This document shows positions 4,185 to 50,666 of a DNA stretch of 64,000 nt, piece after piece. How positions within the stretch are numbered: position 1 is the first letter of the stretch; each line of letters opens with the position of its first letter. Origin of the DNA: Campylobacterales bacterium (GTDB lineage: Bacteria > Campylobacterota > Campylobacteria > Campylobacterales > Sulfurimonadaceae); the NCBI GenBank assembly GCA_016938175.1, contig JAFGVE010000038.1, positions 1 to 64,000 on the forward strand. Direction: 5' to 3'. The notes under the pieces are model-generated. The model saw only the letters and a list, made by a program, of their open reading frames with translations, was not told where the DNA came from and made no database searches. Both the position numbers and the translations under genes were made by a program.

Positions 4185-4874
4185 ATGCAGAGTGAAAAAC
4201 AGCCTTTTAAAATATTATATGTTGAAGATGAAGAAGCTATTCGAGAAAACTATACGCTCTATTTAAAAAAATATTTTGCACACGTTTATACAGCGGGTGA
4301 TGGTGAAGAAGCATATAAAGTGTACAGGGATAAAAAGCCTGAATTAATGCTTGTTGATATCAATATTCCTAAAATGAACGGTTTGGAATTAGTAAGAAAA
4401 ATACGTCAAAATGATAGAGCGACAAAAATTATTGTATTGACAGCACATGCTGACGTAAACTATCTTCTTGATGCGACAGAACTTATGCTTACAAAATATC
4501 TTGTCAAACCAATCACGAGAAGTGTATTAAAAGATGCACTTAATATTGCCATAGAAGATATGACAAACTTTAACGTCTCTTCAAACCTTATTATTCCTTT
4601 AAAAGAGAATTTTTCGTTCAACATTGAAACTCGTGAACTTTTCGCTTCTGGTGTAAAAATTACTCTGACAAACCAAGAGATGCAGATGCTTACACTTTTT
4701 TTACTTAATCAAAATCGTACAATGTCCTATGAAGAGATTATTTACGAACTTTGGGATGAGTATAGTGAGAGTAAAGTAAGCTCAATTAAGACTCTTATTA
4801 AAAAATTGAGACAGAAACTTCCACAGGGAACTATTGAGAATGTTTTTGCTGTGGGTTATAAGGTAAATGTATAA
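4185..4874 (+). CDS. OmpR-type response regulator
   Basis: 229 residues, starting 2 bases after the kinase stop. The receiver domain (about 8-125) has YVEDEE, the phospho-acceptor Asp58 in LVDINIPKMNG, and the conserved Lys in YLVKPI. The C-terminal part (about 135-229) is a winged-helix Trans_reg_C domain (KVSSIKTLIKKLRQKL, then a VGYKV ending). It is the evident partner of the SBP-domain kinase upstream. Targets cannot be read from sequence; the desaturase in the same run is a reasonable candidate. Confidence 0.88.
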   Translation: MQSEKQPFKILYVEDEEAIRENYTLYLKKYFAHVYTAGDGEEAYKVYRDKKPELMLVDINIPKMNGLELVRKIRQNDRATKIIVLTAHADVNYLLDATELMLTKYLVKPITRSVLKDALNIAIEDMTNFNVSSNLIIPLKENFSFNIETRELFASGVKITLTNQEMQMLTLFLLNQNRTMSYEEIIYELWDEYSESKVSSIKTLIKKLRQKLPQGTIENVFAVGYKVNV

Positions 4875-4938
4875 GAATTAATGCAATTTAAATAGCATTT
4901 TGGATAGAATGGCGACCATTATAACAACTGGAGAACTT

Positions 4939-5859
4939 ATGGACGCTGCCAAATATATTTGGATGAATGGAGAGTTTGTAGCTTGGGATGACGCTAAGGT
5001 ACATGTACTTTCACACACTATTCACTACGGAAACGGAGTAATAGAGGGAACAAAGGCGTATAAAACTGCAAAAGGGTACGCTATTTTTAGGCTGAATGAT
5101 CATACCAAAAGACTTAAAGAGTCTGGAAAAATGACCTTATTAAACATTCCGTATAGTGTAGAAGAGATGAATCAAGCACAGATTGATCTTATTAAGAAAA
5201 ATGAGTTTACAGGTGATAATGTTTACCTGAGACCGTTTGCATTTTTAGGTTATGGTGTTATGGGAGTGTATCACAAAAATGCTCCAGTTGAAACTGTAAT
5301 GGCTGCTTGGGAGTGGGGTGCATATCTTGGCGAAGAGGGATTACAAAAAGGTATAAAACTTAAAATTGCCTCTATGACAAGACCTGCAAATACTTCAAAC
5401 ATGGGTAAAGCAAAAGCTACTGCAAACTACCTAAACTCACAAATGGCAAAATATGAAGCTATTGACTGTGGGTATGATGAAGCGCTACTACTTGATGATC
5501 AAGGGTATGTTGCAGAAGCTTCAGGTGCAAGTTTTTTTATGGTTGCAAACGGAGTACTTGTAACACCTCCAAGTGACAATGCACTTGTGTCAATTACACA
5601 AAAAACAGTTATAGAAATAGCTGAAGATATGGGTATAAAGGTTGAACGTCGTCGTATCTCTCGTGAAGAGGTTTACATTGCTGATGAGGCATTTTTAACT
5701 GGAACAGCAGCAGAAATCACTCCTGTACGTATGGTTGATGCAAGAGAGATAGGCTGTGGTTCACGTGGAGAGATTACAGAAAAACTTCAAAGTACATACT
5801 TTGATATAGTTTTTGGTAGAAACCCAAAATATGAGCACTACTTAACATATATAGATTAA
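4939..5859 (+). CDS. ilvE: Branched-chain amino acid aminotransferase
   Basis: The PLP fold-type IV enzyme catalyses the last step of valine, leucine and isoleucine synthesis. KAKATANYLNSQ aligns with the PLP-lysine segment of IlvE, and GYVAEASGASFFMV matches the conserved cofactor-phosphate region. The N-terminal YIWMNGEFVAWDDAKVHVL and HYGNGVIEGTKAY are also typical. I chose the ATG at 4939, giving 306 residues (normal for IlvE), because GGAGA lies 4 bases upstream. A TTG at 4900 would add 13 residues with no homologous character. Confidence 0.93.
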   Translation: MDAAKYIWMNGEFVAWDDAKVHVLSHTIHYGNGVIEGTKAYKTAKGYAIFRLNDHTKRLKESGKMTLLNIPYSVEEMNQAQIDLIKKNEFTGDNVYLRPFAFLGYGVMGVYHKNAPVETVMAAWEWGAYLGEEGLQKGIKLKIASMTRPANTSNMGKAKATANYLNSQMAKYEAIDCGYDEALLLDDQGYVAEASGASFFMVANGVLVTPPSDNALVSITQKTVIEIAEDMGIKVERRRISREEVYIADEAFLTGTAAEITPVRMVDAREIGCGSRGEITEKLQSTYFDIVFGRNPKYEHYLTYID

Positions 5860-5885
5860 TAAAAAAAGAATAAGGACTAAAGATT

Positions 5886-6968
5886 ATGGCATCAGATATG
5901 AATGATTATTTCAACAAAAAAAAGAGTGAAAACGGTGGAGGGTATCAAAAACCTTCTGGCGGTTCAGGTGGACCAAAAGGACCTCAAATACCTAAGATAG
6001 AGTTTAACATGGGTGGAAAGTCTGGTTTTATTTATTTTATTGTTGCTGTAGTTATTCTACTTGTGCTAGCAAAACCTTTTACAATTATTGAAGAGGGGCA
6101 ACGTGGTATTTTAAGTACGAATGGTAAGTATCAAGACCAAGCATTACTTCCAGGTCTACACTTCATCATTCCACTTATTCAAAAAGTATATGTTGTAGAT
6201 ACGAAAGTTCGTATTATTAACTATGCGACACGTATAGAAGCAAATAGTGGAAGTTCAGGAATTTTAACAAAACCAGCTGTTACAGTTCTTGATAAGCGTT
6301 CACTTCCTGTTGGAATAGAACTTACTGTTCAATATAGATTGAACTCACAATTTGCGGCTCAAACAATTTCTAACTGGGGATTTAGTTGGGAAGATAAGAT
6401 TATTAACCCTGTTGTCCGTGATGTTGTTCGTAATGTAATCGGAAAGTACGATGCAGAAGCACTTACACAAATGCGTAATGAGTTAGGAAAAGAGATTGAA
6501 GCAGCTATTAGTGAAAAGGTAAATAATCTGAAAAATTCGCCTGCAGTACTACAGTCAGTGCAGCTTCGTGACATTATTTTACCTGCGAAAGTAAAAGAGC
6601 AAATTGAACGTGTTCAAATTGCCAAACAGGAAGTACAAAAAGCTGAACAAGATGTACAGCGTGTAAAACAAGAAGCACTTAAACGTGCAGCTGAGGCACA
6701 GGGTGTTGCAGAGCAAGCACGTATTGAAGCGCAAGGTAAAGCAGATGCCGTAACAATTGAGGCAAATGCACAAGCTAAAGCAAATATTTTGATAGCAAAA
6801 TCTTTGAGTGATAAACTTTTACAACTTGAGCAAATTAAGGTTCAAGGTCAGTTCAATGATGCACTTCGTGAGAATAAGGACGCAAAAATTTTCCTAACTC
6901 CTGGTGGTTCAACTCCAAATATTTGGGTTGATACGAAAGATATTAAAAAAAGAACTTCGGCTAACTAA
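5886..6968 (+). CDS. SPFH/band-7 (prohibitin-like) membrane protein
   Basis: 360 residues. A Gly/Pro/Lys-rich cytoplasmic N-terminus (1-45) is followed by one membrane helix (about 48-66), a band-7 domain opening with IEEGQRGILSTNGKY and PGLHFIIPLIQKV, and then a long Lys/Gln/Ala-rich coiled coil (about 235-300). This is the layout of prohibitins and HflK/HflC, which form large membrane-anchored rings and restrain proteases such as FtsH. No protease partner lies next to it. The TAA shares its last base with the ATG of hisIE. Confidence 0.85.
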   Translation: MASDMNDYFNKKKSENGGGYQKPSGGSGGPKGPQIPKIEFNMGGKSGFIYFIVAVVILLVLAKPFTIIEEGQRGILSTNGKYQDQALLPGLHFIIPLIQKVYVVDTKVRIINYATRIEANSGSSGILTKPAVTVLDKRSLPVGIELTVQYRLNSQFAAQTISNWGFSWEDKIINPVVRDVVRNVIGKYDAEALTQMRNELGKEIEAAISEKVNNLKNSPAVLQSVQLRDIILPAKVKEQIERVQIAKQEVQKAEQDVQRVKQEALKRAAEAQGVAEQARIEAQGKADAVTIEANAQAKANILIAKSLSDKLLQLEQIKVQGQFNDALRENKDAKIFLTPGGSTPNIWVDTKDIKKRTSAN

Positions 6969-7651
6969 TGAGCTTTGAAGCACTCAGTAGAGTAGATTGG
7001 GAGAAGTCTGAACTTCTTCCTGTAATTGTTCAAGAGGTAGGAACAAATGAGATTCTCATGATGGCCTACATGAACAAAGAAGCACTTCAGCTCTCTTTAG
7101 AGACAAAAATAGCACACTACTTCTCACGCTCTAAACAGCGCATATGGAAAAAGGGAGAGTCTAGTGGGCATACGCAAACTATTCACTCTTTTAATATTGA
7201 TTGCGATAACGACACGCTACTTATTAAAGTGACACAAGAGGGTGTGGCTTGCCATACTGGTAGAAAATCTTGTTTTTTTACAGAGCTTGAGAGTGGTGCT
7301 ACTACTAGCGATGTAGAAGTAGACACAACTGTTGCTTATGGTGTTATAGATACACTCTACCATACAATTCAAGAGCGTAAAAATGCTGATCCATCTTCTT
7401 CCTGGACAGCAAAGCTTATGAGTAAGGGTGAAAACACTATCTTAAAAAAAGTTGTCGAAGAGGCAGGGGAGTTTAGCTTTGCCTACAAAGATAATGATGA
7501 AGATGAGATGATATATGAAGCGGCTGATTTAACATACCACATGTTAGTAGCACTTGCTGTTAAAAACATCTCTCCAGATAGAATTAAACAAGAACTTGCA
7601 CGAAGATTTGGCATGAGCGGAATCGCAGAGAAAAACGCAAGAGAGAAGTAA
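6968..7651 (+). CDS. hisI: Bifunctional phosphoribosyl-AMP cyclohydrolase / phosphoribosyl-ATP pyrophosphatase
   Basis: HisIE fusion of 227 residues catalysing steps 2 and 3 of histidine synthesis. The HisI half (about 1-115) has MMAYMNKEALQLSLET, AHYFSRSK, KGESSGHTQ and the zinc/substrate residues in DCDNDTLL and CHTGRKSC. The HisE half (about 125-225) has the MazG-like helical motif KVVEEAGEFSFAYKD and EAADLTYHMLVAL. It overlaps the band-7 gene by one base and the next membrane-protein gene by one base, so the three are probably co-transcribed. No other his gene lies nearby. Confidence 0.95.
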   Translation: MSFEALSRVDWEKSELLPVIVQEVGTNEILMMAYMNKEALQLSLETKIAHYFSRSKQRIWKKGESSGHTQTIHSFNIDCDNDTLLIKVTQEGVACHTGRKSCFFTELESGATTSDVEVDTTVAYGVIDTLYHTIQERKNADPSSSWTAKLMSKGENTILKKVVEEAGEFSFAYKDNDEDEMIYEAADLTYHMLVALAVKNISPDRIKQELARRFGMSGIAEKNAREK

Positions 7652-8163
7652 TGAATGCAAAAATAGCCGCATTTATAGATGGACTCATAAGCTATGATTA
7701 CATTCTATTTATAGGCTCATTTGTTTTTTTTATACTATTTATTATTCTAACAATTCTTTTAAGAAAAAAAATCACACTTGCTTTACTTTTTTTATTCCTC
7801 GGATTCACTACACTTTTTTTAGGACCGACAGTAGGTTATGTAAAGATGCATAAATATCTTTTTAAAAATAGTGTTATTTTGGAGAGTCAGAAAAAACTCT
7901 CTTTTACTGAGACTGTAGTTGTGAAGGGACGTGTTATTAATGAATCAAACTATGATTTTAAAAACTGTAAAGTTACTGCAAGTGCTTATAAAGTTACAAA
8001 AAATGAGTATAAGAATTTTTTATTAAAATTAAAGCCATTTAAAAAAAGGTCGATGCTAACCACTGAGATACCAAAGGGTGGCTCATATGATTTTAAGCTC
8101 TTTATAGAGCCTTTTACTTATTCAAAAGAGTATAACATCTCATTGGAGGCGGACTGTCAATGA
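7651..8163 (+). CDS. DUF2393-like membrane protein, copy 1
   Basis: 170 residues with two N-terminal membrane helices (about 18-38 and 43-65) and a C-terminal extracytoplasmic beta domain (about 85-170) that includes VVVKGRVINESNYDFKNC. The layout fits the DUF2393 family of Campylobacterota, assigned from memory of the family rather than a search. Function is unknown. It is coupled to hisIE (TAATG) and overlaps the second copy by 4 bases. Confidence 0.6.
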   Translation: MNAKIAAFIDGLISYDYILFIGSFVFFILFIILTILLRKKITLALLFLFLGFTTLFLGPTVGYVKMHKYLFKNSVILESQKKLSFTETVVVKGRVINESNYDFKNCKVTASAYKVTKNEYKNFLLKLKPFKKRSMLTTEIPKGGSYDFKLFIEPFTYSKEYNISLEADCQ

Positions 8164-8705
8164 CACTTTTCAACTACTGGCATTATATTGTTTTCGGTGT
8201 AATTTTTCTTATCTTTTTAGGAGGAGTTTACAGTGCCTTTAGACAGCAGTCTACTAAGTTGCGTTATGGAACACTATTTAGTACCATACTTATTTCTGTT
8301 TTCTTAGCAGCTTTTTCTATTCTTGTCGTGGATAAATATACAAAGAAAGTTACTCTTTATAAAATGGAAAATAAACGAATTCTCTCTATAGAAAAGATTA
8401 TCTATACTGGTATAGTTAAAAATGAGGGAAAACATGAAATTGGCAAAGTAACATTTGAAATTAAACTTGTCAATCAAGGACATGCTACTGGGAATGTTAA
8501 AGGTGGTAGTTTTTATAAAGCAAGCGGTTTTTTGGATTTTTTTACGGGTGGATATAATTTAAATCTTAAGCCACAGTCTGTGACTAAAGAGTTTGTTGTT
8601 GCAAAAAATTTAAAGCCTGGCGAAGCAAAAGCATTCCGTGTTTACTTTGATTATCCACCATACTTTAGAAGTACCTCACAATTTGCTAAAGTATATGCTC
8701 ATTAA
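8160..8705 (+). CDS. DUF2393-like membrane protein, copy 2
   Basis: 181 residues with the same architecture as the preceding gene: two N-terminal membrane helices (about 8-25 and 38-58), then a beta-rich extracytoplasmic domain with YTGIVKNEGKHEIGKV in the place of the VKGRVINESNYDF segment of copy 1. The ATG lies inside the end of the upstream gene (ATGA overlap), so translation is coupled. The pair looks like a tandem duplication whose products may work together. Function is unknown. Confidence 0.6.
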   Translation: MTLFNYWHYIVFGVIFLIFLGGVYSAFRQQSTKLRYGTLFSTILISVFLAAFSILVVDKYTKKVTLYKMENKRILSIEKIIYTGIVKNEGKHEIGKVTFEIKLVNQGHATGNVKGGSFYKASGFLDFFTGGYNLNLKPQSVTKEFVVAKNLKPGEAKAFRVYFDYPPYFRSTSQFAKVYAH

Positions 8706-8720
8706 AAAAAAAGGACTTTC

Positions 8721-9368
8721 ATGCGTATTTTGATGCTTGAAGATGACCTTGTTTTAGCAGAGTTAGTAAGTAGTTTTTTACTCTTGCATCTTCGTATTGA
8801 TACAGTGAATACAATAGAAGAAGCACGATTACACTTAGAACAAGTACACTATGATGTTATTTTATTAGACAGAAATATTAATGGTGTAGATATAGGCCTT
8901 GAGCTTATCGAAGAGATTAAAACTAAAAACCCAATGACTGGCGTTATTGTTATTAGTGCTTATGATAGTATAAGTGACAAAATTGAGGGACTGAATCTTG
9001 GTGCAGATGATTATTTAGATAAGCCTTTTGATTATGATGAACTTCTTGCACGTATTTATGTACAAGCAAGAAAAAATAGAGGTCTTCCTCAGTTTAGTAT
9101 TGATGGACTGCTATGTAATACTATAGAGAAAAGTATCGTTTATAAGGAGGAAGAATTACATTTTTCCAAAAAAGAGTCAAATTTACTTTTTTATCTATTA
9201 CAAAAACGAGGCACTATTGTTTCAAAAGATGAGCTTTTAGATGCTCTATATATAAATCCTCAAAATATCTCTTCAAATACTATTGATGTGACAATTCGCA
9301 ACATAAGAAAAAAACTGCCAATTAATATTATTAAAACAATTAAAACAAGAGGGTATTTCATTGATTAA
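8721..9368 (+). CDS. OmpR-type response regulator
   Basis: 215 residues. Receiver domain with LEDD near the N-terminus, phospho-acceptor Asp50 in VILLDRNINGVD, and Lys in DDYLDKPFDYDELLAR. The C-terminal winged helix (about 125-215) has KKESNLLFYLLQKRGTIVS and SNTIDVTIRNIRKKL, then a TRGYF ending. AAAGGAC lies upstream of the ATG. The cognate kinase overlaps its 3' end by 8 bases. A multihaem cytochrome gene converges on the pair and could be a target (inference only). Confidence 0.9.
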   Translation: MRILMLEDDLVLAELVSSFLLLHLRIDTVNTIEEARLHLEQVHYDVILLDRNINGVDIGLELIEEIKTKNPMTGVIVISAYDSISDKIEGLNLGADDYLDKPFDYDELLARIYVQARKNRGLPQFSIDGLLCNTIEKSIVYKEEELHFSKKESNLLFYLLQKRGTIVSKDELLDALYINPQNISSNTIDVTIRNIRKKLPINIIKTIKTRGYFID

Positions 9369-10572
9369 TTATTCTCTACAAAGAAGTATTTTAATTTATA
9401 TGAGTGTCAGTTCTTTACTTATTGCGCTTTTTCTTTCATCTTTTGTTATCTCTGATCATAAACGATCTCTAGAGCATAGTATACTTGCAAAAATGCATCT
9501 TATAGCCAAAGATATTGTTGAACATGGATTATATTTGAGTGATGTTGATAGTTTGAAGGATATATATAATTTACATGAGTCATATCACAGTCCTGAGTAT
9601 CTTGAATCAATGCAACATATTAAGTTCGCTTATCATATTTCAAAACCAATTCCAAGTAATAATTTAGAAGTTATAGAAAAGCTTCCAAATGGAAAATATT
9701 TACTTGTTTGGTCTGACAGAAGATATATCAATGAGAATATTAATGCACTTTTATTAGAACTATTTTTTGCATTAATAGGTATTTTGAGTCTTATTATGGC
9801 AGTTTTTTACTTTTTTTTAAGGAAGTTACTTTATCCTCTAAAATGTTTAGTTAATTACTGTAACAGTAAAGTAAAAAGTAAAGATTCTCTACCGATTTGT
9901 AGTGGAAGCTATGAGGCAAATGCACTTAAAGAAGCAATCTTAAGTTTGGAACAGAGAAACCAAGTTCTTTGTAAAGAGAAGCAAAATATATTTAAAGAAG
10001 CTGCTCATGAAATAAAAACACCTATTGCAATCTTAAAGGCAAGAATAGATCTTTTTGCTAAAAGCAATATGGAAAAAGAGAAATTTATTAATGAAAGTAA
10101 AAGTGATATAGCTACAATTAGTAATAAGTTGAGAGAACTCATATTTTTAAAGGCAATTGAGTGGGATATTCAACAAGCAAAAGAGCGTGTAATGATGCAA
10201 AATCAATGTTCAATGATGCAACAACTTTTCAAGCCTATTTTAGAGAAAAAAAATATTAAAATGGTGTCTAATCTTCAAGAAGATTTTGCACTGTTTATTC
10301 ATAAAGAGGCAATTGGACGTGTCATGCAGGCAATTTTTGAAAATATATTTATGAATACAAAGAATGGTACAACAATCCAAACATATGTAGATGCACATAA
10401 TAGCAGATTAAAAATTGTTAATGAAGTGGATAAAAAAAGTGACGAAATCCTTTTTAGTTCACATATTGGTACAAAGCTTATAAAGCGTCTTGCAGATGAA
10501 TTAGAGTATAGCTATGAGACTTATGAGGAAGGAAAGTATTTTTATACAGAGATAACTTTCAAGGCACAGTAA
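9361..10572 (+). CDS. Sensor histidine kinase with degenerate ATP-binding domain
   Basis: 403 residues starting at a TTG with GAGGG 7 bases upstream, overlapping the regulator by 8 bases. Two membrane helices (about 10-29 and 133-152) flank a periplasmic domain of about 100 residues. The HisKA motif EAAHEIKTPIAILKAR carries His216. In the ATPase domain an N-box remnant (FENIFMNTKNGT) and a GTKLIKRLA segment remain. The G1 box (DxGxG) is replaced by NEVDKKSDE, so ATP binding may be altered. It is the partner of the regulator at 8721-9368. The signal is unknown. Confidence 0.82.
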   Translation: MINYSLQRSILIYMSVSSLLIALFLSSFVISDHKRSLEHSILAKMHLIAKDIVEHGLYLSDVDSLKDIYNLHESYHSPEYLESMQHIKFAYHISKPIPSNNLEVIEKLPNGKYLLVWSDRRYINENINALLLELFFALIGILSLIMAVFYFFLRKLLYPLKCLVNYCNSKVKSKDSLPICSGSYEANALKEAILSLEQRNQVLCKEKQNIFKEAAHEIKTPIAILKARIDLFAKSNMEKEKFINESKSDIATISNKLRELIFLKAIEWDIQQAKERVMMQNQCSMMQQLFKPILEKKNIKMVSNLQEDFALFIHKEAIGRVMQAIFENIFMNTKNGTTIQTYVDAHNSRLKIVNEVDKKSDEILFSSHIGTKLIKRLADELEYSYETYEEGKYFYTEITFKAQ

Positions 10573-10584
10573 TAGTCGATTCAA

Positions 10585-10605
10585 GACTTCCCCTTAGAGG
10601 AAGTC
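10585..10605. terminator. Hairpin between convergent genes
   Basis: A perfect 7-bp stem, GACTTCC (10585-10591) with GGAAGTC (10599-10605), encloses a 7-base loop. It sits between the stops of the plus-strand kinase and the minus-strand cytochrome gene, the expected place for a shared terminator. There is no strong T-tract on either side, so termination efficiency is uncertain. Confidence 0.5.
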
Positions 10606-10612
10606 CTAATCT

Positions 10613-13390
10613 TTATTGAACATCTATAGTTTTTGTAAATACTTGAGTAACTAAATGTTTTGCTGCATCACTAGCAGTTTGGTCTAAGAAGCCATTAGAT
10701 GCTTCGATAAACTGTCCATTTGCACCTTTTTGCATATAGTATACATCATAACGTGCAGTGACTCCTACAAGACCACTAATATCATATGTAAGTGTATACA
10801 TTTCTGTCTCATTTGGACTTAAACGAGTGTCACTTTCTACTTTGTTTGAATCAAAACCTGGACGTACAACAAATGTAGGAACACCTTCTATTGTATAGAT
10901 CTTACCTGTTTCATGTCCATAAATTCTAGTAAATTTTTGTGTTGCATTTGAGTCAACAATCGCTGCATTAAACACCAGTCCACTCGTAAGACCATTTGTA
11001 ATAGTTTGATTACTTAATGTTCCATCTGTTGCTGATATAGTTAATTTTCCGACACCACTGTCTGAATAAAATCTTTGGGAACCAACAATTGATCCATTTA
11101 AATCAGGAACTTTTCCTGTAAAATCGAGCGTATCACTTAAGTTGTTTTGAACACTTATTGTTGTTGCTTGAGAGGTTGCTAAAGTTTTACCTGTTAAGGT
11201 AGCCAATGTATTGGTTACATCATGAAATGCTGATTCACCAGTTATATTTGTAGGAGATAACATAGTACCATTCTCATCTGTAAGAATCAAACGAGTGAAA
11301 ACACGACGCATTGGATGTGCACCAGGGAACATATGTGCAGTTTTATTAGTTAAGGTTGTTGTAACGGTGAGTGTTGTCCCACTTAAACTAGTGGTTACAT
11401 CCGCACCAAATCCACTTTTAATTTTTGCAACTGCTGCAGTTTTATCTGTACCTGTTTTACTTGCACCTAAGAAGCCATGAGAGTTAAGCCATTTGGCTGC
11501 AACAGGATTGTCTGCACCGTATCCATCACTATCATCTGCATAGAAGTGAGGAGTTAGTAAAGATTTATCTGTAAAGAGTTTGTTTGGGCTTGCCCATTGG
11601 TGTAGTACTGTTCCTTCAATTCTTTCCATATGACATTTTTGACATTTTGGTGATGTATCAGTATCTTCATGGTTGTTATCTGAGCCTGTCGTAACAGCAT
11701 TCCATGTTGAACAAAGTTCCATGAATTCACCAGCAGTACCATCAAATGCTCCTGCTGAGCGCTGATGACAAGAAAGGCAGAGTGCTTTACCTTCATCTGC
11801 AAAGTGATTAAAGCCATTTGCTACATTGAAATGAGGATTTACTTGTGAAGAACGGTTTGTTTCATCATTTTCGTTTTCATTTCTAATACCAGTGACACCA
11901 AATGGTCCATAAAATGGTCCACCGGTATAGTGTACTTTTCCATTTGTACCATTAAGATCTTTTTGAGTCATGCTATAACGGCCATCTGCGGCTCTTCCCG
12001 TACTGTCTATATTAGCAGTTGTATTATAATCTGTTGGTTTTTCAGGTCCCCATAGTCTAAAAAATTTATTCATATCAGGATTTGTTGCATCTTCATTGTA
12101 TGTGAATGAAGATCCTGCTGCAGCTTTTACTGGTCCATGAGGTCCGACACGCATATCGCTTTTGAGTGTATAGCTTGTTTCATCACCTAGACCCATCAAT
12201 CTTGGTGTCTCTATACTATGACAAAATGCACAGTTGATGCCCTCTTGGTTTGCTTTATGCCCAATAGCAAATGTTGCTTTATATACGGCATTAGCCGGAG
12301 CATTAGCAGCAATTACAGCACTCTCTGTATTTGGGCTGTTTATTTCATGCTCCGCCTTGAGTGTTTCAAGCATAGTAGTATTTATATCCGTCGCATCGGC
12401 AATTTTACTTACTGTTACTTTGATATCCCCAGCATAGTAAGCACCTGGTGCATGGCATTTAATACATGTTTGTGCAGCACCACTAAACATGTTCTTTGTT
12501 CCAACTGCATCACCATCAATTATATCTTTTTGTTGATAGAGGACATCACTTGTCGTACCTATTTTAGAAAGCTGTATACGTAAAAAGTCCTGAAATTTTG
12601 ATTGGAAGATAGGGTCTGTCCATGATTTTCCATGCATTGAACCAGCCCATGTATCGTAAAGCTCATTATGACAGTGCTGACATTTTTGCTCAGATGAATC
12701 AAAAAGAGTATTACCAAAACCCACACCTGTATGGTACTCAGCTGTTGCAGCAGATATTGGAGCAGTTCTTACGGCATTTTTGTAGTCTACATAGTGAATT
12801 TTATCGCCTACAATTACCTGAGTTCCAAGTGATGATGTTGAACTTGAAGCAAGTTCTTCTTGAACTGTTGTTGCAACGTGTTCTTGAGCTTGAGTAAGTG
12901 TAACACTTTGTGTTTGTATTAATCCTGCATCAGCAAGTTTCTGCTCAAGTAAAGCGATATTTGCAAGCTTGTCATCACTTGCATTGATTTCAAGTGTTGC
13001 TTGTGTTTGTATCCACTCAGATACAGCTGTTTTAGCACTTTCTGTAATTTGAATACCGTTGCTTGGATCACCATCTTCATCAATTGATTGAAGTAGTGTT
13101 ATGACGCCATCGTTATTTTCAATAAATTTCTGTCCATTTTGAACACCGGCAAGTGTTCTTAGTTCAAGTTCACCTATTGAAAATGTAACGCTCTCTCCCT
13201 CCGCACAAACAAAGGAGCCATCAGCTCCAGTTAATCCTTCTCGACCACCAGATGTCGAGTAGTCAATATTTTGAACAGCAGAGTCTAAGTAGTACCCTGT
13301 AACAGTAGTAGAATCACTCTTACTACATGCACTAAATAGTGTTGCAAGTAGTGAGGCTAAGGCTATAGAACCTAAGGTTTTAACTTTCAT
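10613..13390 (-). CDS. Five-haem cytochrome c lipoprotein
   Basis: 925 residues. The N-terminus has a lipobox (LFSACSKS), so the protein should be anchored to the outer or inner membrane facing the periplasm or outside. Residues about 30-130 form a surface-lipoprotein type domain (GYYLDSAVQNIDY, GADGSFVCAEGE). Five CxxCH haem sites are seen: CQHCH near 237, CIKCH near 309, CAFCH near 387, CLSCH near 538 and CQKCH near 583. A beta-rich C-terminal part begins with TAHMFPGAHPMRR, a segment found in cytochrome c554-like multihaem proteins. AAGGGGG precedes the ATG. It probably carries electrons in respiration or to an extracellular acceptor; the substrate is not known. Confidence 0.88.
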   Translation of the reverse strand: MKVKTLGSIALASLLATLFSACSKSDSTTVTGYYLDSAVQNIDYSTSGGREGLTGADGSFVCAEGESVTFSIGELELRTLAGVQNGQKFIENNDGVITLLQSIDEDGDPSNGIQITESAKTAVSEWIQTQATLEINASDDKLANIALLEQKLADAGLIQTQSVTLTQAQEHVATTVQEELASSSTSSLGTQVIVGDKIHYVDYKNAVRTAPISAATAEYHTGVGFGNTLFDSSEQKCQHCHNELYDTWAGSMHGKSWTDPIFQSKFQDFLRIQLSKIGTTSDVLYQQKDIIDGDAVGTKNMFSGAAQTCIKCHAPGAYYAGDIKVTVSKIADATDINTTMLETLKAEHEINSPNTESAVIAANAPANAVYKATFAIGHKANQEGINCAFCHSIETPRLMGLGDETSYTLKSDMRVGPHGPVKAAAGSSFTYNEDATNPDMNKFFRLWGPEKPTDYNTTANIDSTGRAADGRYSMTQKDLNGTNGKVHYTGGPFYGPFGVTGIRNENENDETNRSSQVNPHFNVANGFNHFADEGKALCLSCHQRSAGAFDGTAGEFMELCSTWNAVTTGSDNNHEDTDTSPKCQKCHMERIEGTVLHQWASPNKLFTDKSLLTPHFYADDSDGYGADNPVAAKWLNSHGFLGASKTGTDKTAAVAKIKSGFGADVTTSLSGTTLTVTTTLTNKTAHMFPGAHPMRRVFTRLILTDENGTMLSPTNITGESAFHDVTNTLATLTGKTLATSQATTISVQNNLSDTLDFTGKVPDLNGSIVGSQRFYSDSGVGKLTISATDGTLSNQTITNGLTSGLVFNAAIVDSNATQKFTRIYGHETGKIYTIEGVPTFVVRPGFDSNKVESDTRLSPNETEMYTLTYDISGLVGVTARYDVYYMQKGANGQFIEASNGFLDQTASDAAKHLVTQVFTKTIDVQ

Positions 13391-39015: not shown

Positions 39016-40257
39016 ATGTTTGAAGAAAAGTACAATATTTTAATCATTGATGATAATCCAAAAAACATCCAACTTGCTGCGAATGTGCTTCGTTCAAGTA
39101 GTCGCTATAAAATCTTCTTTGCTACTGATGGAAAGAGCGGAATAGCACAGTTGGGCATACGAGATTATGCACTGATACTCTTAGACATTAACATGCCAGA
39201 ATTGAGTGGTTACGAAACTGCTGATTTTATAAAAAAAGATCCAAAGTTTAAAAAAATTCCCATTATTTTTCTCTCTGCGAACGCTGATAAAGAGAGTATC
39301 CGTAAAGGTTTTGAACATGGTGGAGAAGATTATATTACCAAACCTTTCGATGAGTTAGAACTCCTCCATAGAGTTAAAACACATGTAGAACTTTTTTTAG
39401 CAAAAGAGAAACTGCAAGCTGAAGTTGATGAAACAAAAGTGCTGCTAGAGCAGTACAAAGTGGCTGTTGACAGTACGTCATTGGTTTCAAAAACAGATAA
39501 GTATGGAATTATAACTTATGTGAATGATGAATTTTGTCGAATTTCAGGATACACAAGAGAAGAGTTGATAAGGCATAGTCATAATATGATTCGTAGCCCA
39601 AATATGAAATCTCTTTTTTTTAAAGAGCTATGGGAAACTATATCTAGTAAAAAAATCTGGCGTGGACTTATAGAAAACCGTACAAAAGATGGTCATCCAT
39701 ATTTTGTAGATACTACGATTTTACCAATTCTTGATATTAATAATGAGATTTTGGAATACATTAGCATACGAACAAATATAACTTCTGAAGTACAACTCAG
39801 AGAAGATGTTGTATCAACACAAAAAGAGATTCTCCATACTTTTGGTGAACTTGGGGAGTGGCGTTCTCAAGAGACAGGAGAACATGTAAATAGAGTTTCA
39901 CTTTTTTCAGAAGTTTTGGCTCGTGCATATGGTTGGAAAATTTTTCATCAATCTAAACATGCACTTTTACAGGCTGCAGCAACTATTTCTCATGAACATC
40001 ATGAAAAATGGGATGGAACAGGGTATCCAAGAGGCTTGTCAGGAGAGCAAATACACATATATGGAAGAATAACAGCAATATGTGATGTATTTGATGCATT
40101 GAGCCATGATAGGGTGTATAAGAAAGCATGGAGTGTAGAGGAGACAATAGCTTTTTTACAAGCAGAACGAGGAAAAGCATTTGAACCTAAGCTTGTTGAT
40201 CTCTTCATAGAAAATTTAGACGAAATTTTAGAGATTAAGCGTCAACATCAAAACTGA
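39016..40257 (+). CDS. Response regulator with PAS and degenerate HD-GYP domain
   Basis: 413 residues. Receiver (about 5-120, Asp57 in LILLDINMPELSG), PAS domain (about 145-255, ISGYTREELI), and an HD-GYP-type C-terminus. The last part keeps His290 (GEHVNRV), HEHHEKWDGTGYPRG (His328, His329) and ICDVFDAL. It lacks the whole segment that carries the HD dyad: only 38 residues separate His290 from His328, against 85 in the intact HD-GYP protein at 49170-50666. It probably cannot hydrolyse c-di-GMP but might bind a nucleotide or a partner. It is coupled to the SCO gene by TGATG. Confidence 0.85.
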   Translation: MFEEKYNILIIDDNPKNIQLAANVLRSSSRYKIFFATDGKSGIAQLGIRDYALILLDINMPELSGYETADFIKKDPKFKKIPIIFLSANADKESIRKGFEHGGEDYITKPFDELELLHRVKTHVELFLAKEKLQAEVDETKVLLEQYKVAVDSTSLVSKTDKYGIITYVNDEFCRISGYTREELIRHSHNMIRSPNMKSLFFKELWETISSKKIWRGLIENRTKDGHPYFVDTTILPILDINNEILEYISIRTNITSEVQLREDVVSTQKEILHTFGELGEWRSQETGEHVNRVSLFSEVLARAYGWKIFHQSKHALLQAAATISHEHHEKWDGTGYPRGLSGEQIHIYGRITAICDVFDALSHDRVYKKAWSVEETIAFLQAERGKAFEPKLVDLFIENLDEILEIKRQHQN

Positions 40258-44446: not shown

Positions 44447-45946
44447 ATGGGTGACTTAAAAAAGCTTCAAGAGAGTGCAAAAGATTTACATGTTTTGTAT
44501 GTTGAGGATAATGATGCCTTACGTTTAAATGCTACGAAATTATTTCAGAAGTTTTTTGAGAATCTTAATATAGCAGCGAATGGAGAAGAAGCTTTAGAAC
44601 TTTATAAAAAAAATAGAGCTGATATTCTTATTACAGATATAAAAATGCCTCGTATGGATGGATTAACTTTGAGTGAGAAGGTTAAATCTATAGATCCTAG
44701 AACACGGGTAATCATAATGTCTGCTTTTGACGATAAGGAGTTTTTACTTCGTGCCATAAGGGATGGGGTTTTTAGTTATCTAAAGAAGCCGGTAAACGTC
44801 ACTGAATTAACCGATACACTTTTTAAAGCAGTAGAAGAGATACGTAAGGAGAGGGAGAATCAACTTTTTTTTATGCATCTTAAAAGTATTTTTAACTATC
44901 AAAGTTCTATGGTTTTAATGATGTATAAAAATAAACCTACACTTGCTAATCAACTCTTTTTAGATTATTTTGAAGTTGAAACTCTTGAAGAGTTTATAAA
45001 CGAATATGAAGATTTAACCTACGAATTTTTACCTCATGATGGTTTTTTGTATCAACATGGAGAGATTAATGTGTATGATGTCTTTGAAAATAATGAACAG
45101 AAACTTTTTCATGTGAAAATGCAAAATCCTAAAGCTGAACTTCGTCATTTTATTGCAAAATATCAGACTATACCTGAGCAAAAAGGATATGCAATAATCT
45201 CTTTTGATGATGTTACCGAACTTAATCTATTGAGACTGTTTGATGAAAAGCAAAGTCTACAGGATCTAAGGGAAGAGGAGTCTAAGGCACTTTATAATCT
45301 TTTAGAGGTTTTACAACGTAACAATGCACAGATAGAAGTACATAATTTTTATAAGGGTTTAAGTATAACTAACAATGCGCTCATAAATAATGTATCCAAA
45401 GAATCACTTTTTCTCAAAACAACATACCTACAATTAAAATCGCTACAGTTTGAACAAAAAACACTGCTTGTTTCAAATGCACTTCCTCGTCATCTTGAGT
45501 GTAGTAGTGTCAAACGAATCAGTTTTGAACAACAAGAGTGTGAATTACAAGGACTCCATTTTGTACGCCACTCTGCTATTGAGCGTAAAACTATTCGTGT
45601 TGTACCGGAGGAGAAGCATACTGTTTCGCTTTTTATTCGAGAAGGGAAGTTTCATGGTGATGTATTTATTGAAGATATTTCACTTGATGCTATTAAGTTG
45701 AATCTTAACGCTTTTCCTGCAGGTCTAGAAGATAATGAGGAAGTTATTTTAGACATTGTTTTAGAACTAGATAGAAAACCTTTTATTATAAATACACGAG
45801 CTAGTTTTTATTATATGAGTGAATCTAAACATAGTTTTAGTCTTGTATTTTTATTTATCAATACTGAAAAAACTAATTTACTTAAATATATAACAAAACG
45901 TCAGATGGCTATAATTAGAGAGTTTAAAGGATTGCAAAATGGCTGA
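44447..45946 (+). CDS. Response regulator with PilZ-like C-terminal domain
   Basis: 499 residues. Receiver (about 12-130, Asp64 in ILITDIKMPRMDG, Lys in YLKKPV). A PAS-like middle part (about 145-260) and a coiled coil lead into a YcgR-N-like region (about 310-370). The C-terminal PilZ-like domain (about 375-490) has HSAIERKTIRVVPEE and VFIEDISLDAIKL. These correspond to RxxxR and (D/N)xSxxG, with Ala for the final Gly. It probably couples phosphorylation to c-di-GMP binding, but binding needs proof. It overlaps the ODP gene by 8 bases. Confidence 0.8.
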   Translation: MGDLKKLQESAKDLHVLYVEDNDALRLNATKLFQKFFENLNIAANGEEALELYKKNRADILITDIKMPRMDGLTLSEKVKSIDPRTRVIIMSAFDDKEFLLRAIRDGVFSYLKKPVNVTELTDTLFKAVEEIRKERENQLFFMHLKSIFNYQSSMVLMMYKNKPTLANQLFLDYFEVETLEEFINEYEDLTYEFLPHDGFLYQHGEINVYDVFENNEQKLFHVKMQNPKAELRHFIAKYQTIPEQKGYAIISFDDVTELNLLRLFDEKQSLQDLREEESKALYNLLEVLQRNNAQIEVHNFYKGLSITNNALINNVSKESLFLKTTYLQLKSLQFEQKTLLVSNALPRHLECSSVKRISFEQQECELQGLHFVRHSAIERKTIRVVPEEKHTVSLFIREGKFHGDVFIEDISLDAIKLNLNAFPAGLEDNEEVILDIVLELDRKPFIINTRASFYYMSESKHSFSLVFLFINTEKTNLLKYITKRQMAIIREFKGLQNG

Positions 45947-46697
45947 AAACGAGAAAGTATTATATGATAATGGCATTCACAAGTGTGTGATGTTTAGTTT
46001 TGATGATGAGCAACAAGAAGATGCCTTCCTTTCTGTAAATCAGTATCTCATAGTTCATAAAGATTCCGCGGTTTTGATAGATCCGGGTAGTGAAGCTATT
46101 TTTGATGAACTATATGAAGCAATTTCAAAATATATTGATCCTCAAAAAATTAAATTTATTTTTTTCTCCCATCAAGACCCCGATGTTTCTGGTTCTATAG
46201 CCCAGTGGGCAATTACTACACAAGCAAAGTTTATTATGAGTTCGTTGTGGGTACGTTTCATGAGTCATTATGGACTTATGGAAATGAGTCGTATAATGGC
46301 TCTTGCGGATCATGGAGCTAAAATTGGATTTGGAAAGGAGTTTTTAAAGTTTATTCCAGCACATTTTTTACACTCTCCAGGAAATTTTTCACTTTATGAT
46401 TCTCAGTCAAAAATTCTTTTTTCTGGTGATATTGGAGCGGCAATAGTACACTCTAAAGAAAACTATAAACAAGTAGATAAATTTGAAGAACATTTAAAGC
46501 ATATAGAAGTGTTTCATAAACGCTACATGGCATCTAATAAGTTATGTCGTGCTTGGGTTAGTCAGGTTGATGGTTTGGATGTTGAAATTATAGCTCCACA
46601 ACATGGTTTTATATTTGCAGCAGATAATGTAAAAGCTTTTTTAGAATGGTTTTACAAACTTGAATGCGGAAGTGATCTTTTAGAGGAATTGTATTAA
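45939..46697 (+). CDS. Diiron ODP-type protein (metallo-beta-lactamase fold)
   Basis: 252 residues. The fold and motifs match the oxygen-binding diiron proteins (ODP) related to flavodiiron proteins: SHQDPDVSGS (His78, Asp80, Asp82), FLHSPGNFSLYD (His145), FSGDIGAA (Asp164) and APQHGF (His222). The flavodoxin domain of flavodiiron enzymes is absent, so it is more likely a sensor than an NO/O2 reductase. ODP of Treponema denticola is known to report O2 to a chemotaxis kinase. Here it sits between a receiver-PilZ-like protein and a histidine kinase, coupled to both. Confidence 0.82.
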   Translation: MAENEKVLYDNGIHKCVMFSFDDEQQEDAFLSVNQYLIVHKDSAVLIDPGSEAIFDELYEAISKYIDPQKIKFIFFSHQDPDVSGSIAQWAITTQAKFIMSSLWVRFMSHYGLMEMSRIMALADHGAKIGFGKEFLKFIPAHFLHSPGNFSLYDSQSKILFSGDIGAAIVHSKENYKQVDKFEEHLKHIEVFHKRYMASNKLCRAWVSQVDGLDVEIIAPQHGFIFAADNVKAFLEWFYKLECGSDLLEELY

Positions 46698-46699
46698 TT

Positions 46700-49177
46700 A
46701 TGGAGAAGTTAAAAGCATTAGGCTCAGAGTTATTATTCAAAAGGTTTATAGCTTATATAGTAGTTGCTACCTTTATACTTTCTACGTTTATAGCTATTGC
46801 AGTTTCGATGGCCACAGAAGCGGTTCAAAAAGAGGAAGAACGGATTTATTATGAAAACTTGGATAAAAGCACTCGACATATTATTAAGCACTATTTAAAT
46901 GAGTATGAATATAAACTCAAAAGGTTAATCCAGACCACAAACTTAGTTCCATTGTTAGAAAAAGGCGATAGAGAAGCTATGTATGCTCTTTTAAAACCTA
47001 AATTTGATATTTTTAGACGAGAAGCACCAAATTTTCAAGTCATGCACGTTCATTTAGCTAATGGAAACTCATTCCTTCGTGTTCATCAACCTATGTTTTA
47101 TGGCGATGATATAGCATCCATTCGACCAATGTTGCAAGAGATACATAAAAAACATACTTTCATAAGTGGATATGAGACAGGTGTTTATGCTAACGTTTAT
47201 AGAATAATGGGGCCTATTTTTAATCAAGAGGGAAAATACATTGGAGCACTTGAAATAGGTTTAAATCCTAATTTTATAGTTGATAAAATTGAGGAGATTA
47301 ATGGATATAGAGGTGTTTATTTTGTAAAAGAGTATATGCCTCATCTTTATGATGATGCAAATAATTATGTTATTGGAGAGTATAGACTTCATGCTCAAAA
47401 ACCAGAAGATGTGGAGAGAGTCTCTCAAATGCTCTCTTCACAAACAAGTTTAAAAAATTATGAAGAAGTTATTTACAAAAATAAACGCTATGTTACTCAT
47501 GTACTTCCTCTAAAAGATTTTAATGGTGAGAATATTATCAAACTTGTTTTCTTTCAAGAAATAGTGAAGAAAAATCTTTTTTTCACACTTTATCAAATCG
47601 TTCTTTATGTCTTAATTGTATTAATGCTCATATTTTTTATTCTACTAATATATAAACGTATCCAAACATATCAAAAGCTTGTAAGTGAAATTTATCTTGA
47701 AAAATTAGAGATAATTAAAAAGAATGAGACAGCGATAGAAAAAGTTTCAGAACGTCTTGAAATGGCAGTTAGTGGAACGAAAGACGGTCTTTGGGATTGG
47801 AATTTACAAACAAATGAAGTTTACTTTTCGCCACGTTGGAAATCTATGTTAGGGTTTACTCATGAAGAGTTGCTAGATAGCTTTGAAACATGGGAAGAAC
47901 GCGTTCATCCAGAGGACTTACAAAAAACTATAGATGCTATAAAAAAGAGTCAGGAAAAAGAAGGTTTAATATACAACAGTGTACATAGACTACGTCATAA
48001 AGATGGGCATTGGGTTTGGATTTTAGATAGAGGAAAAACATTTTTTGATTCAGATGGAAAGCCTGTAAGAATGGTTGGTTTTCACACAGATATTTCTGAA
48101 TATAAAGAGTTAGAATCAAAATTAAAAGATGCAAAAAATGAGTTTGAGATGTTTATGACTCATATTCCCTATCTTGTGCGTATAGTGGATGAGAATTTAG
48201 AACTTGTGTATGAAAATAGAGCTGCAACAGAGTTTTATGTTGAGTTAGAAGCATGGGTAAAAGATGAGATAATGAGCCTAAATAAGAAAGCTTATAATGA
48301 AGGCGTTGCAGAAGAGATTTTAGAGTTTATAGGTCTCAAAGAAGAAATTTTTAGAGCACTTTTTTTTCGTATAATGCATGATAATGGGGAAATTTCAATA
48401 GGTCAGGTGTATATAAATATTACAAAACAGAAGGTTTTAGCAAAAGAGTTACAGGTTAAAAATGACTTGATGATAGCACAGTCGCGTTATGCCGAGATGG
48501 GAGAGATGATTAGTATGATAGCTCATCAATGGAGACAACCTTTAAGTGTTATAACAATGAATGTCAACAATGTTTTAGTAGATATTGAATTGGATAACTT
48601 TGATATTAATTCTCTCAAAGAAAGTTTGGTAGATATAAATGCGCAGGCCTTACACCTTTCAAAGACTATAGATGATTTTAGAAACTTTTTTAGACCTGAT
48701 AAAGTGAAAGAGATTATTGGACTTGAAGAGGTATTTTGGCAAGCTTATGGTGTTATAAGAAAAAGTTTGGAGAGCCATAATATTGAGATTGAAACTGATT
48801 TTAGGAATGTTACGAAGGTCCAAGTATTTACTCGTGAACTACAACAGGTGTTTATCAATCTTTTAAAAAATGCTAAAGAAGCGATGGAGTCTAACAAAAC
48901 GCAAAGCAAAAAAATTACCGTGAAAATATTTCAAGACACTGGGTCAGTATTTTTAGAAATGTGTGATAATGGAGGTGGTGTACCACAGGGTGTTATTGAA
49001 AAAATATTTGAACCATACTTTAGCACTAAAGATGAAAAAAATGGTACGGGACTCGGGCTTTATATGAGTAAGATGATTGTAGAGAAGCATCTTCAAGGTA
49101 CTCTGAGTGTAGAAAATAGTCTTGAGGGAAGTTGTTTTAGGATTCAACTTCCAGGATGTGAGATAGAAAATGAGTAG
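46700..49177 (+). CDS. Cache- and PAS-domain sensor histidine kinase
   Basis: 825 residues. Two membrane helices (about 14-36 and 292-315) flank a periplasmic Cache-type domain (FLRVHQPMFYGDDIASIRP, then GYETGVYANVYRIMGPI). PAS domains follow at about 350-475 (DGLWDWNLQTNEVYFSPRW) and about 485-580. The kinase core has MGEMISMIAHQWRQPL (His609), CDNGGGVP, IFEPYFSTKD and GTGLGLYMSK. It starts 2 bases after the ODP gene and overlaps the HD-GYP gene by 8 bases. Partners are likely the receivers encoded on either side. Confidence 0.9.
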   Translation: MEKLKALGSELLFKRFIAYIVVATFILSTFIAIAVSMATEAVQKEEERIYYENLDKSTRHIIKHYLNEYEYKLKRLIQTTNLVPLLEKGDREAMYALLKPKFDIFRREAPNFQVMHVHLANGNSFLRVHQPMFYGDDIASIRPMLQEIHKKHTFISGYETGVYANVYRIMGPIFNQEGKYIGALEIGLNPNFIVDKIEEINGYRGVYFVKEYMPHLYDDANNYVIGEYRLHAQKPEDVERVSQMLSSQTSLKNYEEVIYKNKRYVTHVLPLKDFNGENIIKLVFFQEIVKKNLFFTLYQIVLYVLIVLMLIFFILLIYKRIQTYQKLVSEIYLEKLEIIKKNETAIEKVSERLEMAVSGTKDGLWDWNLQTNEVYFSPRWKSMLGFTHEELLDSFETWEERVHPEDLQKTIDAIKKSQEKEGLIYNSVHRLRHKDGHWVWILDRGKTFFDSDGKPVRMVGFHTDISEYKELESKLKDAKNEFEMFMTHIPYLVRIVDENLELVYENRAATEFYVELEAWVKDEIMSLNKKAYNEGVAEEILEFIGLKEEIFRALFFRIMHDNGEISIGQVYINITKQKVLAKELQVKNDLMIAQSRYAEMGEMISMIAHQWRQPLSVITMNVNNVLVDIELDNFDINSLKESLVDINAQALHLSKTIDDFRNFFRPDKVKEIIGLEEVFWQAYGVIRKSLESHNIEIETDFRNVTKVQVFTRELQQVFINLLKNAKEAMESNKTQSKKITVKIFQDTGSVFLEMCDNGGGVPQGVIEKIFEPYFSTKDEKNGTGLGLYMSKMIVEKHLQGTLSVENSLEGSCFRIQLPGCEIENE

Positions 49178-50666
49178 TATAGTGGAGCTTAGAGAGTATG
49201 CTCAGACCCTCTCTGTATTATATGTTGAAGATGATAGCGTTATTAGTACTTCAATGGGAGAGTATTTAAGAAAGTTTTTTAAGGAAGTGTATGTCGCTGT
49301 AGATGGAGAAGAGGGGCTTAAAGAGTATAAAAGAAGAGTCTATGATCTCATTATAAGTGATATATCTTTGCCAAAGTTAAATGGCTTGGATATGGTTAAA
49401 GAAATTAAAGATATAAAGGCTTCACAGTTTATTCTCATAACAAGTGCCCATAGTGATGCAGAGTATTTTGTAGATGCAATTAAAATAGGCGTAGATGGGT
49501 ATATCATTAAACCGTTTAATTTGGAACAGCTTAATGAAGAGCTTATTAAAATTGCAAAAAGCATTTTTATGTCCAGGGAGAATGAACAGTATAAGACGAG
49601 TTTAGAGCAGATGGTAGCTTTAAAAAATAAAGAGCTAAAAAATTTACTTGAATTTGAAAATAAAAACTATGAACAAACGCTTTACTCAATGGTGGATATG
49701 ATAGAAGCCCGTGACACATATACAGCAGGACATTCACGTCGTGTTGCGGAGTATTCAAAAATGATTGCTGAGGCTATGGGGTATACACAAGAAGATACAG
49801 ACAAGATTTATCAAGCTGGTTTTTTACACGATATAGGTAAAGTAGCTACTCCTGATATGGTACTTCTAAATCCAAAAAAACTTAATAGTTTAGAGTATGA
49901 ACTCATACAAGAACATGTGAATGTCGGTTATCAGCTTTTGAGTCATGTACCTATGTTTGAAGCACTCTCAGAAATTATACAGTCACATCATGAGCGTTAT
50001 GATGGAACAGGATATCCACGTGGAATTAAAGGTGAGGAAATTCCAAGACTCTCGCATATCATGATAGTTGCGGATGCATTTGATGCAATGACTACTAACA
50101 GAATATATAAGGCGAGAAAATCAATCCATGAAGCACTTGAAGAGTTACGTTTACTCAGTGAAAAGCAGTTTCATCCTGAGGTTGTAACTGCTGCTTTAGA
50201 GGTGTTGCAAAAAATTTATATAGATGAAAATATCTCACAAGTACCTAGCACTCCAATTGAAAAAGCACGTTTTGCTTACTTTTATAAAGACCCAATGAGC
50301 GATGCATATAATCAAAACTATCTAGATATTACTCTTGCAAAAAATAGACAAACACAACTCTATAACTCTTTAGATGTTTTTTTACTTGAGGAGTTTTCTT
50401 ATTACAATAAAGAGCACGGCTGGGAAGAAGGGAATAAGCTTCTGGCACAAATTGCAAATCTGTTGATTGCGTGTTTTGATAACTCTTTAGTTTTTAGAAT
50501 TTTTGGTGATGATTTTGCTGTGTTGAGTTCAGAAGAGATAGATGTTCAAAAAGCCTTAAATGCTATAGAGAGTCTTTTAGATTCTCATAAAGTCTCTGTG
50601 CAGTATAAACACCTTCATTTAACTGATGAAGCTATTAATTTACTTGAAGCAATAGAAAGATTTTAG
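49170..50666 (+). CDS. Response regulator with HD-GYP and degenerate GGDEF domain
   Basis: 498 residues. Receiver (about 10-125, Asp64 in LIISDISLPKLNG). An intact HD-GYP c-di-GMP phosphodiesterase domain (about 165-350) has AGHSRRV (His188), LHDIGK (His220, Asp221), SHHERYDGTGYPRG and VADAFDAMTTNR. The last 120 residues resemble a shrunken GGDEF domain (KEHGWEEGNKLLAQIANLL, RIFGDDFAVL), with FGDDF at 445-449 in place of GGDEF, so cyclase activity is unlikely. Phosphorylation by the coupled kinase should control c-di-GMP breakdown. Confidence 0.88.
   Translation: MSSIVELREYAQTLSVLYVEDDSVISTSMGEYLRKFFKEVYVAVDGEEGLKEYKRRVYDLIISDISLPKLNGLDMVKEIKDIKASQFILITSAHSDAEYFVDAIKIGVDGYIIKPFNLEQLNEELIKIAKSIFMSRENEQYKTSLEQMVALKNKELKNLLEFENKNYEQTLYSMVDMIEARDTYTAGHSRRVAEYSKMIAEAMGYTQEDTDKIYQAGFLHDIGKVATPDMVLLNPKKLNSLEYELIQEHVNVGYQLLSHVPMFEALSEIIQSHHERYDGTGYPRGIKGEEIPRLSHIMIVADAFDAMTTNRIYKARKSIHEALEELRLLSEKQFHPEVVTAALEVLQKIYIDENISQVPSTPIEKARFAYFYKDPMSDAYNQNYLDITLAKNRQTQLYNSLDVFLLEEFSYYNKEHGWEEGNKLLAQIANLLIACFDNSLVFRIFGDDFAVLSSEEIDVQKALNAIESLLDSHKVSVQYKHLHLTDEAINLLEAIERF

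Follow-up and report, generated by a model that had tools for sequence, protein, structure and literature searches.

A predicted diiron oxygen sensor encoded together with a putative YcgR-type cyclic di-GMP receptor in Campylobacterales

The 64,000-nucleotide stretch of contig JAFGVE010000038.1 (assembly GCA_016938175.1, a Campylobacterales bacterium of the Sulfurimonadaceae), referred to below as the window, contains a gene cluster in which a member of the oxygen-binding diiron protein (ODP) family is, judging from the sequences, coupled to a cyclic di-GMP (c-di-GMP) receptor and a c-di-GMP phosphodiesterase, in a pairing that is conserved among relatives. ODPs are known mainly as chemotaxis O2 sensors in one spirochaete. 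Four tightly packed open reading frames of the plus strand, spanning positions 44447-50666, encode in this order a receiver/YcgR-PilZ protein, the ODP, a dCache-PAS histidine kinase and a receiver-HD-GYP protein. The interpretation preferred here, held with moderate confidence, is that they form a two-component module, with a diiron O2 sensor that would condition a phosphorylation-gated brake of the YcgR type and, often, c-di-GMP breakdown. The joints given in the initial annotation of this DNA are exact: an 8-base overlap of the first two genes (Table 1), a 2-base gap between the ODP and kinase genes, and an 8-base overlap (ATGAGTAG) of the kinase and REC-HD-GYP genes. The ODP had been named as the first member of the cluster; it is preceded by the receiver/YcgR-PilZ gene. 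Pfam finds REC in the first product, ODP in the second, dCache_3, PAS_3, HisKA and HATPase_c in the third, as expected from its earlier description as a Cache/PAS kinase, and REC, HD_5 and a weak GGDEF in the fourth.

The first protein had been described as a receiver with a PilZ-like effector, and this effector can now be specified as YcgR-N plus PilZ. In the window's protein Pfam sees REC and nothing more; Asp64 of this domain is invariant in 31 orthologues. The YcgR-like half was uncovered by fold comparison and by a Pfam scan of each orthologue. The fold comparison with the AlphaFold2 model of the full-length protein (predicted local distance difference test, pLDDT, 86.7) gave by Z score only receiver domains, and the C-terminal half was therefore modelled separately (residues 291-499, pLDDT 90.9). 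The best structural match of this half is the E. coli YcgR-c-di-GMP structure 5y6f (Z 14.0 over 189 residues), and further two-domain matches are MrkH (Z 13.8) and MotI/DgrA (Z 13.6). The PilZ domain alone matches that of YcgR with Z 13.2 and a root-mean-square deviation (rmsd) of 2.4 over 114 residues, and the YcgR-N-like domain, which aligns with YcgR, MotI/DgrA, MrkH and PP4397, gives Z 7.8 when its counterpart in 5y6h is taken alone. The large rmsd of the two-domain alignments presumably reflects a different domain orientation. As modelled, the C-terminal half has the complete YcgR-type receptor fold. Both arginines of the RxxxR motif are invariant, as is Ser412 of the second PilZ motif, where Asp410 and Ala415 are each kept in at least 90% of the 31 sequences. 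The Pfam PilZ family (PF07238) matches 29 of the 31 orthologues, with a best value of 4e-6. The middle domain has no Pfam match and is PAS-like by the topology of its model. These findings lead to the architecture REC-PAS-like-YcgR-N-PilZ and to the prediction that the protein is a phosphorylation-gated c-di-GMP receptor of the YcgR type. A profile of the YcgR-like half found no match among PDB sequences at an E value of 10, and the search of the whole genome with Pfam PilZ found none at 1, so the PilZ identity would fail if judged by the latter test alone. Because this genome, with its 43 GGDEF and 9 HD-GYP matches, yet yields no Pfam PilZ match, divergent PilZ domains of this sort may be systematically missed in Campylobacterota.

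For the analysis of gene order, 135 genomes of the same genus were searched with the receiver/YcgR protein, the ODP and the HD-GYP protein, and about 40 neighbourhoods were taken; the named relatives at the ODP locus are mostly Sulfurimonas and place the window in this genus. The search gave 33 stand-alone ODP orthologues with 58-100% identity. In 31 of the 33, the ODP gene has a receiver/YcgR gene upstream of it in the same orientation, and the two remaining ODP genes are situated at contig ends, so that the gene was found wherever upstream sequence exists (31/31). Thus the conservation of gene order among relatives, on which the initial annotation had staked its proposal, is present for this pair. 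The two genes usually share the same 8-base overlap, which implies translational coupling, while in genome G030 three genes are inserted between them. Of 20 Campylobacterota loci outside Sulfurimonas, from Sulfuricurvum, a metagenome-assembled genome (MAG) of Arcobacter and others, 19 retain the pair. The constant unit is composed of the ODP and the receiver-PAS-YcgR protein; the kinase is a variable front end, and the c-di-GMP enzyme is an optional back end. The earlier notion of four coupled genes holds for the pair; the kinase (about 20 of 33 loci) and the HD-GYP protein (11 of 33) come and go, and the possibility of a single fixed four-gene operon was rejected.

Two loci with unusual arrangements were also found. 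One of them (L138, genome G082, positions 4355-9198) keeps the order receiver/YcgR, kinase and HD-GYP with the ODP gone and a 75-base gap, and represents a natural loss of the ODP that lends itself to comparison. In a Helicobacteraceae MAG (L230, 2988-4949), the protein encoded upstream of the ODP is a REC-PAS-GGDEF protein that matches the YcgR-like part weakly and combines a cyclase with the receiver/YcgR type.

The ODP of the window was identified in the initial annotation as a diiron protein with HxDxD, His, Asp and His ligands, and the comparisons agree. The match to PF19583 spans positions 2-194 of the 194-position profile, and the protein matches two solved chains over its full length, 6qrq of Treponema denticola (4.5e-76) and 6qnm (7.7e-71), with the same ligand motifs in all three. 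The segments HQDPDV, AHFLHS, SGDIGAA and APQHG do not differ between the window's ODP and 6qrq. By analogy with its family and with 6qrq-type ODPs, the protein would contain the metal and bind O2 (or NO). The fold is also that of the diiron core of flavodiiron NO/O2 reductases (matches 1vme and 1e5d), as would be expected if the ODP were an enzyme, an O2/NO scavenger or metallo-hydrolase protecting the cell and merely co-transcribed with signalling genes. This explanation is judged improbable: the ODP is a single domain of 252 residues with no flavodoxin domain or electron donor fused or adjacent to it, HQDPDV has another residue in place of the ligand His of HxHxDH-type hydrolases, and signalling genes are the constant partners of ODPs in many phyla. 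Besides, the genome has only one other ODP-like match, a full flavodiiron protein encoded on contig C13, which leaves the window's copy as a stand-alone ODP of the sensor type.

The kinase has two predicted transmembrane segments, at about residues 17 and 300, around the dCache domain, and its H-box AHQWRQ is located at residue 608. Kinases of this AHQWRQ class follow the ODP at the loci counted above with sensor parts that vary: a dCache domain, other membrane domains or none. In genomes G084, G150, G103 and G128 soluble kinases of about 380-410 residues occupy this position, so a periplasmic cue, proposed earlier as an input of the system, is not a general one. Alternatively, the ODP could act on the kinase: the PAS/AHQWRQ kinase would change its autokinase or phosphatase activity under the influence of O2-bound ODP, and the two receivers would follow. 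ODPs fused to AHQWRQ-class kinases (L051-L053, L057, L060) in several genomes of the same genus and the same order speak for this, as do the clusters with such a kinase adjoining the ODP, some of the kinases lacking transmembrane or Cache sensor parts; in T. denticola, the ODP destabilises phosphorylated CheA. The explanation is nevertheless considered rather unlikely, given the pairs with no kinase nearby (G009, G035, G083), while the receiver/YcgR gene is always there. It may be that action on the receiver-YcgR protein and action on the kinase are both true.

Other genes also occur directly after the ODP. At L115 (G097, 8741-10531) the gene after the ODP encodes a dCache-PAS membrane protein of 596 residues with no kinase domain. 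At L127 (7134-7940), and similarly at L190-L192, a gene for about 260-300 residues stands between the ODP and the kinase; the L127 product matches no Pfam family, has a single predicted transmembrane segment at its N terminus, and is possibly an extra sensor for the kinase.

The fourth protein gives Pfam values of 5.2e-40 for HD_5, 1.2e-23 for REC and, weakly, 1.6e-9 for GGDEF. Its HD residues, the HHxxxxGxGYP motif and the catalytic residues that follow are intact. The HD, HHE and GYP residues are invariant in 12 orthologues, and the C-terminal GGDEF-like domain has FGDDF instead of GGDEF and lacks the GG[DE]EF active-site loop. From these motifs, an active c-di-GMP phosphodiesterase with an inactive cyclase-like domain is predicted; the earlier description of a receiver with an intact phosphodiesterase was right as to the catalytic residues and overlooked the degenerate domain. 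Elsewhere in the window, a REC-PAS-HD-GYP protein (39016-40257) matches the HD-GYP profile only from position 93 of 170. It retains the HHExxxGTGYP part, and because the HD metal-binding segment seems to be missing in frame, it is probably inactive as a phosphodiesterase.

The irregular occurrence of the last two genes bears on the view that the four genes stand together by chance or through loose clustering of signalling genes and serve separate pathways. Indeed, the Cache kinase and HD-GYP genes are absent from many ODP-receiver/YcgR loci and present elsewhere too. Such a co-location is nonetheless very improbable, as the ODP-receiver/YcgR pair, with its conserved overlap, is almost universal, and REC-HD-GYP is present at 11 of the 33 ODP loci, where a random position would lead one to expect about 0.03. 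This excess of hundreds-fold ignores shared ancestry, as does the binomial probability, which was calculated for 12 such neighbours. Divergent lineages (L048, L135, L136; the divergent G030/G070/G148 group) have a different HD-GYP protein in this place, adjoining the pair. At L113 and L114 a CBS-PAS-GGDEF-EAL protein replaces REC-HD-GYP (Pfam run on L113 only).

The preferred two-component module would have two inputs, with c-di-GMP and motility as its output. In it, the membrane dCache-PAS kinase would phosphorylate both receivers encoded with it. Phosphorylation and c-di-GMP would jointly set the action of the YcgR-type, flagellar-brake-like protein, whose target is most likely the flagellar motor, and the second receiver would control the HD-GYP phosphodiesterase, lowering c-di-GMP. 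With O2 (or NO) bound to its diiron site, the ODP would act on the receiver-PAS-YcgR protein, whose gene overlaps its own, and would change the phosphorylation or activity of that protein; in this way oxygen would gate the output. The contact of the ODP with this protein, the phosphotransfer pairs, the flagellar target and the direction of the effect are postulated. FliM is encoded in the genome and, with the GGDEF and HD-GYP matches mentioned, makes both c-di-GMP and flagella available. A bolder version is put forward tentatively, namely that the diiron ODP gates the YcgR-type brake by direct protein contact, without chemoreceptors or CheA, and that the associated HD-GYP protein tunes the c-di-GMP sensed by the brake. 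The initial idea that O2 or NO together with a periplasmic cue controls c-di-GMP is supported in part: the link of the ODP to a predicted c-di-GMP receptor and phosphodiesterase is conserved, control of c-di-GMP by O2 or NO is a prediction, and the cue is lost as a general element.

Several observations weigh against this scheme. The gene neighbourhood fits equally well whether the ODP acts on the regulator, on the kinase or on the phosphodiesterase. Receiver/YcgR genes without an ODP exist in G062, G082 and G096, so the core protein does not need the ODP. The HD-GYP family has about 70 relatives in 56 genomes of the genus, mostly away from ODP genes, and is not a dedicated ODP partner. As for the c-di-GMP receptor, almost all orthologues have Ala where the consensus [DN]xSxxG has Gly, and the PilZ domain encoded in the window has a score of only 0.1 against the Pfam family.

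Other combinations of ODPs with c-di-GMP and signalling proteins were seen; the independent links to c-di-GMP speak for the preferred module, and so do the fusions of ODPs to AHQWRQ-class kinases. In Oceanospirillum, Marinospirillum, Allopseudospirillum and a Pseudomonadaceae MAG, all ten retrieved loci of this Oceanospirillales type have the order ODP-ODP-HD-GYP (L196, L200, L201, L207, L214-L216, L218, L223, L224); no kinase or receiver/YcgR gene was seen alongside. A spirochaete locus (L198) reads HD-GYP-ODP-MCP, and the classical pair of ODP and soluble MCP (chemoreceptor) occurs at many loci of other phyla. A second Sulfurimonas ODP subfamily with 35-37% identity precedes an HD-GYP protein (L148) or a GGDEF-EAL protein (L149-L151). 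ODP-GGDEF fusions were found at L050, L054-L056 and L058; the last (G009, 7210-13373) has as neighbours a REC-HD-GYP protein and a dCache kinase that are homologues of those in the cluster, and the ODP-receiver/YcgR pair of G009 stands alone, far from the fusion.

The genome comprises about 2.26 Mb in 44 contigs. The cluster is flanked by genes recognised by eye, one similar to the inositol-monophosphatase type 83 bases upstream and one similar to surE 33 bases downstream. Coordinates of the features are collected in Table 1.

Table 1. Features of the ODP cluster, in positions of the window
Feature	Position	Strand	Basis or remark
Response regulator REC-PAS-like-YcgR-N-PilZ, 499 aa	44447..45946	+	
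REC domain, phospho-acceptor Asp64	44492..44818	+	Pfam 4.9e-24, residues 16-124
PAS-like middle domain, residues ~153-255, bb-aaaa-bbb	44903..45211	+	Topology of model only
YcgR-N-like domain, residues ~295-373	45329..45565	+	Two-domain structural alignment
RxxxR motif for c-di-GMP, R380-R384, where the PilZ domain starts	45584..45598	+	Both Arg invariant, 31 sequences
[DN]xSxxA motif DISLDA, residues 410-415, second PilZ motif	45674..45691	+	Gly replaced by Ala
8-base overlap of receiver/PilZ and ODP genes, ATGGCTGA	45939..45946	+	
ODP, oxygen-binding diiron protein family, 252 aa	45939..46697	+	PF19583 4.7e-76
HQDPDV, predicted diiron ligands His78, Asp80, Asp82	46170..46187	+	Invariant, 15 orthologues
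Predicted ligand His145	46371..46373	+	Invariant, 15 orthologues
Predicted bridging ligand Asp164	46428..46430	+	Invariant, 15 orthologues
Predicted ligand His222	46602..46604	+	Invariant, 15 orthologues
Membrane histidine kinase dCache_3-PAS_3-HisKA-HATPase_c, 825 aa	46700..49177	+	Pfam
Response regulator REC-HD-GYP-degenerate GGDEF, 498 aa, predicted phosphodiesterase	49170..50666	+	Pfam

The ODP of T. denticola (6qrq), an O2 sensor, is coupled to the soluble chemoreceptor TDE2496 and affects the order of CheA in the array (PMC7666581). It resembles the ODP of the window in being a full-length homolog with the same ligand motifs, its gene coupled to a cytoplasmic signalling partner. However, that partner is a chemoreceptor feeding CheA, whereas in the window it is the receiver-PAS-YcgR protein with the kinase and the HD-GYP protein; no MCP gene is present among the neighbours in the cluster, and a coupling of the T. 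denticola type was not found there. Non-haem diiron sensing of O2 or redox state is linked to c-di-GMP synthesis or breakdown in hemerythrin systems, such as Bhr-DGC (GGDEF) of Vibrio cholerae and the hemerythrin-HD-GYP protein of Ferrovum (PMC9388753). These have an unrelated diiron fold and a sensor fused to the enzyme, while the ODP of the window has a metallo-beta-lactamase fold and stands in trans beside a two-component system. The PilZ-receiver response regulator PixA, acting on motility in Myxococcus xanthus, likewise joins phosphorylation and c-di-GMP in one protein (PMC8316039). In PixA, however, a single PilZ domain precedes the receiver, with no YcgR-N domain and no neighbouring kinase or ODP. 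The flagellar brakes YcgR and MotI (DgrA) share with the window's protein YcgR-N and PilZ with RxxxR; the latter differs in having receiver and PAS-like domains in front and being encoded with an ODP, and its contact with the motor is a prediction. The H-NOX/HnoK network of Shewanella is also similar, with a gas sensor, a kinase and several response regulators, including one of the HD-GYP type; its sensor is a haem protein and not a diiron ODP, and it has no receiver-YcgR protein.

The statement of the initial annotation that no described system joins an ODP to c-di-GMP turnover was too strong, since, according to the TREND paper (PMC7319448), ODPs located in operons with various signal-transduction genes and fused to signalling domains had been found in the original ODP study. 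On this account, the general idea of ODPs in signalling operons is not new. Searches of open-access full text gave no description of a pairing between an ODP and a receiver-YcgR protein, nor any account of ODPs with c-di-GMP, ODPs with HD-GYP proteins or PilZ response regulators of Sulfurimonas.

The conserved pairing in a marine sulfur bacterium and its relatives points to a switch by which oxygen would influence whether cells swim or settle. Taken with the ODPs that repeatedly accompany HD-GYP or GGDEF proteins in other groups, the ODP-receiver-YcgR pairing of Campylobacterota suggests a general role of this diiron sensor as an input to c-di-GMP signalling. For microaerophilic sulfur oxidisers such as Sulfurimonas, it offers a specific and testable way in which oxygen could bear on the choice between swimming and settling. 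If true, an ODP-gated brake would connect oxygen to the motor by a route other than classical aerotaxis.

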